DNA of 64,000 nt from Lacipirellulaceae bacterium (GTDB taxonomy: Bacteria; Planctomycetota; Planctomycetia; Pirellulales; Lacipirellulaceae): NCBI GenBank assembly GCA_040218535.1, contig JAVJRG010000012.1, forward strand, positions 496,001 through 560,000, read 5' to 3'. The translations under genes and the position numbers were made by a program. The notes under the pieces were generated by a model. It saw only the letters and a list, made by a program, of their open reading frames with translations. It did not search any database and was not told the DNA's origin. Positions 9,728 to 63,404 of this stretch are shown here, piece after piece (position 1 is the stretch's first letter; every line of letters begins with the position of its first letter).

Positions 9728-9798
9728 GTAGGGTGCGTGAGCGACAGCGAACGCACCAACGGTACTGCGGTGCGTTCGCTGTCGCTCACGCACCCTAC
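9728..9798. repeat. Perfect 30-bp inverted repeat upstream of bioF
   Basis: Arms 9728-9757 and 9769-9798 are exact reverse complements (30 of 30) around an 11-nt spacer. The core is GCGTGAGCGACAGCGAACGC. The element ends 17 bp before the bioF start codon, so it would form a very stable hairpin in the bioF leader unless transcription starts inside it. Confidence 0.95.
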
Positions 9799-13575: not shown

Positions 13576-13640
13576 AGCCGCGACTTAAAAGGTCGCCGGA
13601 AATTACTCGTTGGCTTTCGGCGACCTGTTAGGTCGCGGCT
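13576..13640. repeat. AGCCGCGAC-AGGTCGCCG inverted repeat
   Basis: Arms 13576-13602 and 13615-13640 are near-perfect inverted copies (AGCCGCGACTTAAAAGGTCG against CGACCTGTTAGGTCGCGGCT), forming a ~26-bp stem between the rhomboid and FGE-like genes. There is no T run after it. Confidence 0.85.
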
Positions 13641-17351: not shown

Positions 17352-17375
17352 ATGACGGTCACAGCTGCTATTTGA

Positions 17376-17860
17376 ACCACAGAGATCACGGAGAACACGG
17401 AGGTTTGTTGGAAACCGCAAGATAGCCGCAAGCCGCCATGCAAGATGAGCAACTAACGAGTGAGGTTATTGGGTGTGCGATGGAAGTTCATCGTGCGTTG
17501 GGGCCTGGGCTGCTCGAATCGACTTATGAGAAGTGTTTGCTTTTTGAGTTACGCGAAAAAAGGATCAACGCCGAGGCTCAAGTTGCCTTACCCATCAAAT
17601 ATAAAGGCGAATCACTCGATGCCGGCTACCGAATTGATTTACTGGTTGAGGACAAAGTAATCGTCGAACTCAAATCTATTGATTCACTGCTACCGATCCA
17701 CGAAGCTCAATTACTCTCCTACCTAAAGCTAAGCGGTCTACACACCGGACTATTAATCAACTTCAACACCAAACTATTAAAAGAAGGCATCAAGAGAATG
17801 GTTAACGGCTAGGCATAAGCGTCTCTAACAAACCTCCGTGCTCTCCGTGCCCTCTGTGGT
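17376..17860. mobile_element. GxxExxY gene cassette flanked by 40-bp inverted repeats
   Basis: Left arm 17376-17415 and right arm 17821-17860 are inverted copies matching at about 35 of 40 positions (core CACGGAG-A/G-ACACGGAGGTTTGTT). They enclose only the 124-codon GxxExxY gene. The unit is about 485 bp and sits between lpd and aceE. Its composition is visibly more AT-rich than both neighbours. I saw no clear target-site duplication and no transposase. Calling it mobile is an inference from symmetry, composition and the related repeats at 28450-28721 and 23691-23719. Confidence 0.6.
17438..17812 (+). CDS. GxxExxY protein (PD-(D/E)XK nuclease superfamily)
   Basis: A 124-residue protein. The family name motif appears as [13 protein letters not shown] (residues ~27-39). 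A PD-(D/E)XK-like core follows: [17 protein letters not shown] (D near 68, ExK near 77-79). The family (TIGR04256 / PDDEXK_3) is predicted to be nuclease-like, but no member's role is well established to my knowledge. It is small, AT-rich relative to its surroundings, and enclosed by 40-bp inverted repeats inside a housekeeping operon. That context suggests a selfish or horizontally acquired cassette rather than a pyruvate dehydrogenase component. Confidence 0.9.
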
Positions 17861-17892
17861 AAATAAAAAGAAGCTTCAAGAAAGCAACCATC

Positions 17893-24826: not shown

Positions 24827-24883
24827 CACGCAATTCTAGGGCAGAAAACAAGCCCCGTCGAAGGGGCAGCTCATTTCGTCTCT

Positions 24884-24955
24884 GAGCCGTGAGGCGTTAG
24901 CCCGCGGGTGGTATTCTCACAAGCTTCCACCCGCGGGCTAACGTCCTGCGGCTCA
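24884..24955. repeat. GAGCCG-GAGGCGTTAGCCCGCGGGTGG inverted repeat
   Basis: Arms 24884-24911 and 24927-24955 are inverted copies (GGCGTTAGCCCGCGGGTGG against CCACCCGCGGGCTAACG), forming a long GC-rich stem with a 15-nt loop. It lies between the divergent site-2 protease and TPR genes. A single arm of the family is at 12526. The remaining ~290 bp to the TPR gene show no ORF I can support. Confidence 0.85.
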
Positions 24956-27600: not shown

Positions 27601-28341
27601 CTAAAAATCCAACACCATCCCGTCGGTGCCAATCTCAACGTTTGGGAAGATCTTTCTTGCCGCTTCGAGATCCAGCACCGAATCATCATCAAATAGCGGA
27701 TTGATGTGCACGAGCACCATCCGCCCAATCTCGGCCTTCTTGGCGACCTCGACCACGGGCGTCAAGCAACTGTGCCCGGTCAGTTGCGCGTGTTCCTCCA
27801 TGCCGTCGTCGAAGTTGCACTCGTGGATCAGCAAATCGACACCTGCAATCTTTTCGAGATAGTCCGCGTCCGTTTTGGCAACTGTATCAGTAACGTAAGC
27901 CATCGAACGATCAGGCCAATCCAGCCGATAGCCGATCGAACCGCCCGGGTGCTCCAGCGGAAAATGCGTCAGCTTGCCGCCGTGGGGTAGCTCGACACTT
28001 TCGGCAATCGGCTGCATGTCGATCGGCGGAAGCACCGGGAACAGCAGCTCTGAGAAGAGATGCTCGCGGATCGCTTCGAGCTTCGCTTGCTCGCCGTGCA
28101 CATTCACGCGCTCCACGTTCTTTTCATGCAGCACGTCGAATAGAAACGTCAGCCCAATGCAATGATCGAGATGGGCGTGAGTGAGAAAAATGTCAAGCGT
28201 CTCGGTCTCGATCAGTGGCCGCGCCCGATAAATGGCCGTCCCCGCATCAAGCAACACCCCAATCTCAGGCAGCATCAAACAAGCCGTCTGGCGACGATCG
28301 TTGGGGTGATAGCCAGTGGTGCCGAGAAGGACGAGTTTCAT
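27601..28341 (-). CDS. MBL-fold metallo-hydrolase (RNase Z-like)
   Basis: A 246-residue metallo-beta-lactamase-fold protein. The metal motif is LTHAHLDHCIG (residues ~53-63), with further ligands expected at D in YVTDTV and H in the LIHECNF and GHSC segments. The layout resembles the RNase Z/ElaC group, but it lacks that family's long exosite arm, so tRNA processing is uncertain. A TTG one codon upstream is an alternative start. It converges with the TPR gene. Confidence 0.85.
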   Translation of the reverse strand: MKLVLLGTTGYHPNDRRQTACLMLPEIGVLLDAGTAIYRARPLIETETLDIFLTHAHLDHCIGLTFLFDVLHEKNVERVNVHGEQAKLEAIREHLFSELLFPVLPPIDMQPIAESVELPHGGKLTHFPLEHPGGSIGYRLDWPDRSMAYVTDTVAKTDADYLEKIAGVDLLIHECNFDDGMEEHAQLTGHSCLTPVVEVAKKAEIGRMVLVHINPLFDDDSVLDLEAARKIFPNVEIGTDGMVLDF

Positions 28342-28449
28342 CAAAAGTAGACGGCGGGGAGATTCTTGTTCCGACGATATTCATTGACGCAGTGCTATAT
28401 TGTAGCTAGTGAGTGCAAATATCGCATCTAGCATTTCTTGGCCGATTTT

Positions 28450-28721
28450 GTAGGTCCCACGCAGAGACGCAGAGGTCGCGGAGATTCCTAGTTGAAAGTG
28501 TCATTCCGACGGGAGGCTCGCCGACCGAGGAATCCGGTCTAAACTCAGGTTGAGTCAACAAGAGTACACGCCCGATTCCTCGGTCGCTGGGGCTCGGTCG
28601 GAATGACATAATGGCACACTTGGCACACGTGCATCGAAAACCGAAGATCGGCTCCGCAATGAATCAGCCTCCAGCCCCCAACCACTCTCCGCGTCTCTGC
28701 GCCTCTGCGCGGGACCTCTAC
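28450..28721. repeat. Nested composite inverted repeat
   Basis: Outer arms 28450-28487 and 28683-28721 carry the GTCCCACGCAGAGACGCAGAG family in opposite orientation. Inner arms 28500-28537 and 28572-28607 (GTCATTCCGACGGGAGGCTC... against ...CTCGGTCGGAATGAC) form a second, independent inverted repeat with GACCGAGGAATC at its core. The right outer arm lies inside the coding sequence of the lipoprotein that follows. This looks like one element inserted into another. Confidence 0.85.
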
Positions 28722-29720
28722 ACCTGCCTTCTGTTAAGCCTTACCCTACTCGCCGGCTGCGTCCCATCTGAGAAGCGTGAGGTGATTGTCTACACGGCAC
28801 TCGACGAGCCCTTCTCGCAACCCGTGTTCGACGAGTTCACCCGCGAGACGGGCATCGCCGTTCGGGCAAAGTTCGATACCGAATCTACCAAGACCGTCGG
28901 CCTCACCCAAGCGATCATTGCTGAACGGGAAAGACCCCGCTGCGATCTGTTCTGGAATAACGAAGTCGTCAATACGTTGCGACTTGAGCAGGAAGATCTC
29001 CTCGCCAGCTACGCCTCACCCGCCGCGAAAGTTTTCCCCAAGCAATACCGTTCCCCCCAAAGCCACTGGCACGGCTTTGCCGCACGGGCCCGCGTGCTGA
29101 TCGTGAATACGGAGCTACTCGCCGAAGAAGATCGTCCCGATTCAATCCTCGCGCTCGCGGACGACAGATGGAAAGGCAAATGTGGGCTGGCTAAACCCCT
29201 AGCCGGAACAACGGCCACCCACGCCGCTTGCGTCTTCGCCGCCTGGGGAGAAGACCGCGCCAAAGAGTTCCTCAGCCAAGTCGCCACCAATGCCCAAATC
29301 CTCAGCGGCAACAAGCAAGTCGCCCGCGCGGTGGCCGACGGGCAAATCGCGTTCGGCCTCACCGACACTGACGACGCCCTCATCGAACAGGCCGCGGGAA
29401 AGCCGGTCGCGATTGTTTACCCCGACCAAGGTGAGGGCCAACTGGGGACGCTATTCATCCCCAACACAATCGCCCTGATCCAAGGCGCTCCCCACGGCGA
29501 AGATGCAAAGCGATTGGTTGACTTTTTGCTCTCACCCAAAGTCGAACGAATGCTGGCCGAGGGGGCGAGTGCGCAGATTCCGCTCAACCCCAAGGTCAAA
29601 GGCTCCGACCGCGTCGAGACCCCACAAACCGTGCGGGCGATGGAGGTCGATTTCGGGGAAGCGGCCAAGCAGTGGGATGTCGCGGCGGAGTTTTTGCGGG
29701 ATGAGTTTACCGTCAAATAA
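28659..29720 (+). CDS. Iron(III)-type ABC transporter substrate-binding lipoprotein
   Basis: A 353-residue protein. It has a lipoprotein signal ending in LTLLAGC (Cys34) and then the class II binding-protein fold: VIVYTALDEPFSQPVFDEF, VRAKFDTES, CDLFWNNEV, KCGLAKPLAGTTATHAACVFA, and GLTDTDDAL. This matches FbpA/AfuA-type ferric-iron or related anion/thiamine binding proteins. No permease or ATPase gene is adjacent, so it is an orphan here. The first ~20 residues (SPRLCASARDLYT) are encoded by a repeat arm. The ATG at 28611 would extend it by 16 residues. Confidence 0.85.
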   Translation: MNQPPAPNHSPRLCASARDLYTCLLLSLTLLAGCVPSEKREVIVYTALDEPFSQPVFDEFTRETGIAVRAKFDTESTKTVGLTQAIIAERERPRCDLFWNNEVVNTLRLEQEDLLASYASPAAKVFPKQYRSPQSHWHGFAARARVLIVNTELLAEEDRPDSILALADDRWKGKCGLAKPLAGTTATHAACVFAAWGEDRAKEFLSQVATNAQILSGNKQVARAVADGQIAFGLTDTDDALIEQAAGKPVAIVYPDQGEGQLGTLFIPNTIALIQGAPHGEDAKRLVDFLLSPKVERMLAEGASAQIPLNPKVKGSDRVETPQTVRAMEVDFGEAAKQWDVAAEFLRDEFTVK

Positions 29721-36355: not shown

Positions 36356-36904
36356 ATGTCCAGCTTCAATCCAAACGATTACGGCCCGGTACTTTCTGAA
36401 CTCGTCGATATCGACCGCCAACGTCCGCTCGACTCGGGGAATCCCTCACAAGCAGCCAAGGCCAAACTAAGGACGGCAACACTTGATTCCGCCTTCGCTC
36501 ATACAGAGATTGCCGATGCGGAAATGGCCCGTTGCGTTCTCTCCGGAGTTTGGCTGCTGCACGACTTTCTTGATGAATCGCATACGTTCAGCCAGGCGAT
36601 TCACACTTCCGAGGGAAGCTTCTGGCATGGCATCATGCACCGTCGCGAGGGAGATTTTTCCAATGCAAAATATTGGTTCCGCAACGCCGGAGACCATCCG
36701 GCGTATTCCCTGATCGCGGCTCGTGTGGCCAACGAAGTTGAAGGGGGCGAATCACTACTCAGCGGCACGGACTGGGAACCGTTCGACTTCGTCGACGCTT
36801 GCCAGGCGGCGCTACGCACTGGCGAGCAAGCCACTGCGTGCCTTCATGCCCAACAAATCGAATGGGAAGTGCTGTTCGACCACTGCTACCAAGCAGCTCT
36901 GTAG
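36356..36904 (+). CDS. Conserved-looking hypothetical protein, 182 residues
   Basis: A soluble, largely helical protein (MSSFNPNDYGPVLSELVDIDRQRPLD...). Trp/His-rich segments such as SFWHGIMHRREGDFSNAKYWFRNAGDHP look like a TPR-like helical pair, so it may be a protein-binding module. Function is unknown. It is divergent from glnN. Its TAG stop (36902-36904) is part of the left arm of the following inverted repeat. Confidence 0.7.
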   Translation: MSSFNPNDYGPVLSELVDIDRQRPLDSGNPSQAAKAKLRTATLDSAFAHTEIADAEMARCVLSGVWLLHDFLDESHTFSQAIHTSEGSFWHGIMHRREGDFSNAKYWFRNAGDHPAYSLIAARVANEVEGGESLLSGTDWEPFDFVDACQAALRTGEQATACLHAQQIEWEVLFDHCYQAAL

Positions 36905-36969
36905 CTCGGGCCTCCAGGCCTGAGTTAAAGAGTCAGTGAACTACTCTCAGCCCTGGAGGGCCGAGCTAC
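36901..36969. repeat. GTAGCTCGGGCCTCCAGG inverted repeat
   Basis: Arms 36901-36924 and 36946-36969 match at 22 of 24 positions in inverted orientation around a 21-nt spacer. It follows the hypothetical gene and precedes the tpx promoter. No T run follows, so it is not a standard terminator. Confidence 0.85.
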
Positions 36970-36976
36970 TAGAGCC

Positions 36977-63353: not shown

Positions 63354-63404
63354 TTTCCACCACGCGGAGCGTGGTGTTACTGTAACTCCACGCTCCGCGT
63401 GGAA
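63354..63404. repeat. CCACGCGGAGCGTGG hairpin
   Basis: TTTCCACCACGCGGAGCGTG and its inverted copy CCACGCTCCGCGTGGAAA flank TTACTGTAA. Same family as 31522-31658. It lies between two minus-strand genes. Confidence 0.8.

Follow-up and report, generated by a model that had tools for sequence, protein, structure and literature searches.

Two inverted repeats, one lying inside the other, occupy positions 28450–28721 of the window, by which we mean the whole 64-kb stretch of DNA analyzed here, and the right arm of the outer repeat reaches into the 5′ end of a lipoprotein gene (Table 1). The locus therefore raises the question of what kind of element the outer repeat is, how one repeat came to lie within another, and whether the start of the lipoprotein gene was changed by them.

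The nested inverted repeats reported in the initial annotation are real and far above chance. The two outer arms are inverted copies of each other, differing by a 1-nt indel and a few mismatches, and they are built of 7-nt units, e.g., CGCAGAG, that point inward. The 12-nt ends of the inner palindrome pair perfectly. The predicted fold of the 272-nt stretch has an energy of −140.8 kcal/mol, compared with −91.3 ± 5.0 kcal/mol in shuffled sequences (z = −9.9; reached in 0/200). At equal thresholds we found 76 inverted-repeat clusters in 400 kb of the real contig and none in 400 kb of a first-order Markov control. An 864-kb sample, consisting of the window and 800 kb of the window's own contig, contains 152 clusters of imperfect inverted repeats, of which nine are in the window. 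Given this number and the empty Markov control, the genome is crowded with palindromic elements. Inside the window itself no excess of either sequence is seen: the arm pattern gives 10 matches with 3 mismatches (12.9 expected) and the end of the inner palindrome gives five matches with 2 mismatches (5.95 expected). Thus, the case for the repeats rests on the pairing of the arms and on the genome-wide families.

Table 1. Coordinates of the nested repeats, their neighboring genes and a cassette used for comparison (positions in the window).
Feature	Position	Strand	Remarks
Left outer arm	28452..28484	+	GTCCCACGCAGAG subtype, three heptad units
Right outer arm	28686..28717	-	Inverted copy of the left arm; its + strand reading supplies lipoprotein residues SPRLCASARDL
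Inner 110-nt palindrome	28499..28608	.	TGTCATTCCGAC...GTCGGAATGACA ends; dispersed family; REPIN-like layout
ABC-transporter substrate-binding lipoprotein gene (SBP_bac families)	28659..29720	+	Preferred start ATG 28659; in-frame alternative ATG 28611
Metallo-beta-lactamase-fold gene, divergent	27601..28344	-	Synteny anchor in the orthologue comparison
GxxExxY cassette, same window, for comparison only	17369..17865	+	Gene 17438-17806; CACAGAG/CACGGAG inverted arms 17369-17415 and 17821-17865

Both repeats belong to dispersed families. For the outer arms, a genome-wide search with the pattern CGCAGAGNCGCGGAG and at most 1 mismatch yielded 26 + 22 matches, as opposed to 6 + 7 for the reversed pattern used as control. 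The arms form a class separate from the inner palindrome, whose 7-nt units include CGCAGAG and CGCGGAG in the arms, and the outer end of heptad arms is often GTCCC or GTCTC. Among the loci fetched, 22 pairs were called, one of which (L091) looks spurious; their arms face each other and are separated by interiors between 23 and about 500 nt long. These interiors are mostly unrelated to one another, and an all-against-all comparison of the 22, searching for an interior common to pairs, gave only a second arm type in three of them and one weak 17-nt match. Of the heptad pairs in the 864-kb sample, 28 point inward and one points outward. The GxxExxY motif is found inside three of the 28, and 19 lie entirely outside called ORFs, though ORFs, which were called mechanically, cover 85% of the DNA. 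Some heptad pairs enclose other ORFs, and the arms may bracket varied cargo. Two such pairs were seen around other small ORFs at L211 2877-3436 and L204 2098-2731; one of these ORFs matches DUF7684 and the other has no Pfam match.

In this genome, arms of the window's subtype also flank a GxxExxY gene (L104; C5:1242558-1243003); the cassette encloses a 128-aa ORF that matches TIGR04256 (GxxExxY) and PF13366 (PDDEXK_3). This genome has seven GxxExxY places, only one of which is inside the 22 called pairs. In related genomes we examined 51 GxxExxY genes, which remained from 57 matches after removal of one at an edge, two partial and three duplicate ones, and several of which are mutually orthologous. 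The flanks of 47 of these are inverted copies of each other above the 99th percentile of shuffles. None of 10,000 permutations of the partners reached the observed sum, and a gene's own partner was the best match in 30/51. A second set, comprising the best 80 of 580 relatives from named genomes in many phyla, gave a similar picture: after four loci with too-short flanks had been dropped, 63 of the 76 usable loci passed the inverted-arm test (archaeal loci, 1/2), again with 0/10,000 permutations and with the own partner best in 33/76. Flanks taken 400–600 bp away served as control, and here 0/66 passed. Inverted arms went undetected by the flank test in 4/51 and 13/76 genes, respectively. The flavor of the arms varies among GxxExxY genes and includes CACAGAG, CGCAAAG, CGCCAAG, CACGAAT, CACGGAT and others. 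Target-site duplication is a criterion for MITEs; in 86 GxxExxY cassettes it had an observed mean of 1.86 against 1.91 ± 0.15 in permutations, with none above chance, which counts against a classical transposon.

The protein encoded by these cassettes carries the residues of the PD-(D/E)XK signature: in 28 sequences D67 and K79 are invariant and E77 is present in at least 90%. Its structural model (pLDDT 95.2) resembles PD-(D/E)XK structures, with 4ic1 as the best match in VIA-align (Z 9.5, rmsd 4.4, 100 residues aligned). Foldseek gave nothing at an E-value of 0.001 or better, its best match being lambda exonuclease at 0.0016, and a sequence search for a relative of solved structure gave one match at E 0.54. 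The fold and the D...ExK residues are thus found together in the alignment, the PF13366 match and the model, and we regard GxxExxY as a candidate nuclease, bearing in mind that a shared fold alone does not show activity. A label as a defense system was also considered and rejected: PADLOC, run on two proteins, returned a Cas4 match at E 0.008 for one and nothing for the other.

We conclude that the outer repeat is a member of a widely distributed class, which in most cases flanks small nuclease-like genes on both sides, and that the pair in the window is gene-less. It has inward-facing inverted arms of two or more heptad units each, as the class has, and no GxxExxY gene is present between 28452 and 28717, which makes it a gene-less relative only.

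A view of gene-bearing and gene-less pairs at one and the same place is offered by the junction between two genes that we take, from their protein sequences, to be gltB and gltD. We inspected this junction by eye at 30 loci; some were too short or too distant to use. Arms around a GxxExxY gene occur here in G000, G004, G006, G011, G015 and G023. G012 has arms in the same slot around a short non-coding interior in which no GxxExxY remnant was found, and it is the best evidence that gene-less and gene-bearing pairs can be states of one element. Among the seven pairs present in this slot, left arms resemble the right arms of their own pair more closely than those of other pairs (as good a fit came from 95 of 5,040 permutations). 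This suggests that paired arms change in concert, though the genomes are related. A different cassette, with AATGACCAAT-type inverted arms around ORFs of one kind (L338, L319, L317 and L328), occupies the junction in G002, G005, G007 and G018. The G002 ORF matches PF05635, the 23S rRNA intervening-sequence protein, and gene-less AATGACCAAT pairs are present in the window's own contig; possibly, these arms and their ORFs represent a second protein family with arms of its own. The remaining loci have neither kind of cassette.

In G001 and G017 the left arm at this junction is followed by a RAYT gene. This bears on the explanation in which RAYT, a Y1 transposase, has spread the outer arms as ordinary REP/REPIN elements and GxxExxY genes are frequent passengers or neighbors. 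The window's genome has 11 Y1_Tnp matches and many other palindromic families, some of them GTAG-ended. Furthermore, in a comparison of 39 genomes, arm excess was correlated with Y1_Tnp gene number (rho 0.35, p 0.03) and equally with GxxExxY gene number (rho 0.34, p 0.03). The two gene numbers are themselves intercorrelated (0.54), and none of these values takes the relatedness of the genomes into account. Such equal correlations mean that arm number does not single out GxxExxY. All five genomes without Y1 have at most three arm matches, but the same holds for six of the seven without GxxExxY. G007 has no GxxExxY gene, yet 17 arm matches (control 8). G004 has 63 + 62 matches of the CGCAGAG type (control 4 + 2), topped in the family only by G018 (84 + 81, control 38 + 37), and this flavor was not seen by eye at any of its nine GxxExxY genes. 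Together with the correlations, these two genomes speak against a simple one-enzyme picture. Spread by RAYT is nevertheless unlikely to account for the arms, given the large majority of GxxExxY genes bracketed by them in both sets. In G017, moreover, the RAYT gene stands behind a truncated GxxExxY start and bears its own GTCCCGGAGGGAC-type repeats, which by eye suggests that it was inserted later.

The inner palindrome is of another kind. It was found at no fewer than 40 distinct places in the genome, 33 of them with a span of at least 86 nt, and since 40 of 78 candidates were scored, the true number may be higher. It thus has the inverted-doublet form and the many dispersed copies of a REPIN. 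The GTAG/CGTC end tag of tagged REPs, as defined in PMC3733652, is absent from it. Within about 2 kb on each side of 7 of the 11 Y1_Tnp matches of this genome we found no convincing copy of the palindrome. An arrangement resembling that of the window occurs at L101 839-920 (G000:C5:843838-843919), where a GTCATTCC palindrome of the inner type begins after a CGCAGAG arm. The window also contains further strong palindromes of other families at 9728-9798 (GTAG-ended, like the described GTAG REPs), 13576-13640, 24883-24955, 36896-36975 and 63360-63402.

In order to see what the repeats mean for the lipoprotein, we turned to its orthologues. The initial annotation was right that residues just before the hydrophobic core come from the repeat, as the right arm is read in frame there. 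It had further proposed that a repeat insertion displaced the original gene start, and this found no support. The comparison uses one genome per species, and G001 is the only genome of the same genus in the search. At the matching places G001 has what look like decayed arms, a match as good being found in 5/2000 shuffles for the left arm and in about 55/2000 for the right; their order and orientation are as expected and the distances are similar. The right-arm remnant is weak by itself. PLRKRASTW of G001 aligns to PRLCASARD of the window at common GCCTCT codons, and the A of the common ‘AS’ is codon 15 from ATG 28659 in the window and codon 14 from the ATG of G001. The two predicted starts are equivalent. 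The inner palindrome is absent from the orthologous place in G001. Decayed arms without an inner palindrome point to two events of different age instead of a single displacing insertion: the outer pair seems to have been present in the ancestor of the genus and the inner palindrome to have inserted afterwards, the outer pair being dated mainly by the arms of this one genome.

The likeness of G001 to the arms could also be due to chance, in which case the outer pair would be recent in the window's lineage, as originally supposed. A de novo scan of the G001 place found no significant inverted repeat, and the frequency of right-arm matches in shuffles would fit this explanation. We consider it quite improbable in view of the rarer left match, the expected order, orientation and distances of the two remnants, and start codons that are only one codon apart.

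Orthologues without the arms had been expected to differ from the window at the N terminus and to be shorter. They do differ, in that the residues SPRLCASARDL were seen by eye in the N terminus of no other orthologue locus. Only part of them are shorter: taking the ATG nearest to the Cys, a rough proxy that gave no value for 5 of the 30 loci, G022 among them, the distance is 34 codons in the window, 30 in G001 and 16–76 in the other 23 loci, 17 of which are below 34. The N termini of L079 and L075 read NPKSKIQN and DPQSKIHN; these look like translations of another simple repeat, and perhaps they are further repeat-derived n-regions.

A metallo-beta-lactamase-fold gene lies upstream in 19 of the 30 orthologue loci. 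Among these syntenic loci a clear inverted repeat is present in two, the window, in which the inner palindrome scores best, and G022; L075 is marginal. In G022, which belongs to a different genus, the corresponding intergenic region is taken up by three concentric arm pairs (CGCCAAG, CACGACG and CGCGGAT types), with an inverted-repeat score of 32.0; the highest score among 60 shuffles was 10.5. The signal, charged and hydrophobic parts alike, is encoded entirely by the right arms as FFQRRARRASNSLRISLALLASLAVAFSAGC, and the innermost left arm contains the sole in-frame ATG of the stretch examined. Judged from these sequences, G022 appears to be an independent parallel in which arms encode the whole predicted signal peptide.

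This distribution also bears on the idea that the arms are functional RNA hairpins, such as an attenuator, an mRNA stabilizer or a bidirectional terminator, kept by selection and not mobile DNA. The very stable predicted fold and the better pairing of own than of swapped arms would be in accordance with such a role. However, one of two divergent genes has its start codon within the pair, the arms of G001 have decayed while the gene was retained, and a clear repeat at so few of the syntenic loci is not what a selected hairpin would predict. The region furthermore has no promoter-like match, one weak terminator-like match and a sole Rfam match far below the cut-off (MIR2646, 22.9 bits versus 245), which we took as chance. 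An RNA function is thus very unlikely.

Taken together, we favor the following explanation, to which we assign a probability of roughly two in three. The outer pair would be a gene-less cassette of a class that consists of two inward-facing inverted arms of 7-nt units and whose gene-bearing form encloses a GxxExxY gene with the PD-(D/E)XK fold. Judging by the decayed arms in G001, the place between the metallo-beta-lactamase-fold gene and the lipoprotein gene was probably occupied by the pair before the two congeneric species diverged. The 5′ end of the lipoprotein gene lies inside the pair, and the right arm is read as part of the n-region of the signal peptide. A different, dispersed 110-bp palindrome may later have inserted inside the pair in the window's lineage, which would give the locus its nested look. 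By analogy with REPIN-RAYT, we infer that single-stranded or supercoiled DNA might allow the arms to form a hairpin or cruciform, and that they might be mobile, being spread or kept alike through the action of a nuclease or through recombination, with GxxExxY as the likely partner. The n-region of signal peptides has few sequence constraints, and an arm within the coding region may have been tolerated for this reason.

A wider version, which we put forward tentatively and hold to be rather doubtful, would see in GxxExxY and the heptad arms a selfish system that is pan-prokaryotic and, though parallel to REPIN-RAYT, independent of it. Here the nuclease would recognize hairpin or cruciform arms, keep them alike and seed gene-less pairs, which would tend to land in existing pairs and would occasionally supply signal peptides. 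For the CACAGAG- or CGCAGAG-type inverted doublets scattered through these genomes, the nuclease-fold family in any case is a concrete candidate partner with testable biochemistry. The lipoprotein, along with its parallel in a second genus, illustrates a route by which selfish repeats may enter a functional protein, as part or whole of a signal peptide.

In the open-access literature searched we found no report of heptad arms or of their link to GxxExxY, and earlier reports may exist elsewhere. ‘Multicopy nucleotide sequences’ have been described in Geobacter bemidjiensis (PMC2996986). According to PMC3733652, the palindromic insertions of Rickettsia resemble the present case in that a repeat is inserted into a protein and translated within it; here, in contrast, one arm forms part of an n-region at the start of a gene, and in a separate lineage (G022) three concentric pairs form a whole signal peptide. 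With the MITEs as outlined in the same text, the cassettes share their shortness, terminal inverted repeats and the existence of gene-less members with gene-bearing relatives. They differ from MITEs in having no detected target-site duplication, mostly unshared interiors and no identified transposase of a known MITE family. The closest counterpart is the REPIN/RAYT system, described by Bertels and Rainey (2011; PMC3116915) as dispersed, mostly extragenic inverted-repeat doublets with a spacer, capable of forming hairpins. The present elements are likewise dispersed, mostly extragenic inverted doublets with a spacer, presumably hairpin-forming, and have a small associated gene near related repeats, but the partner is the PD-(D/E)XK-fold GxxExxY protein and not a Y1 HUH transposase, and each arm is an array of 7-nt units, of which many flavors occur, around interiors that vary in length and are mostly unrelated.
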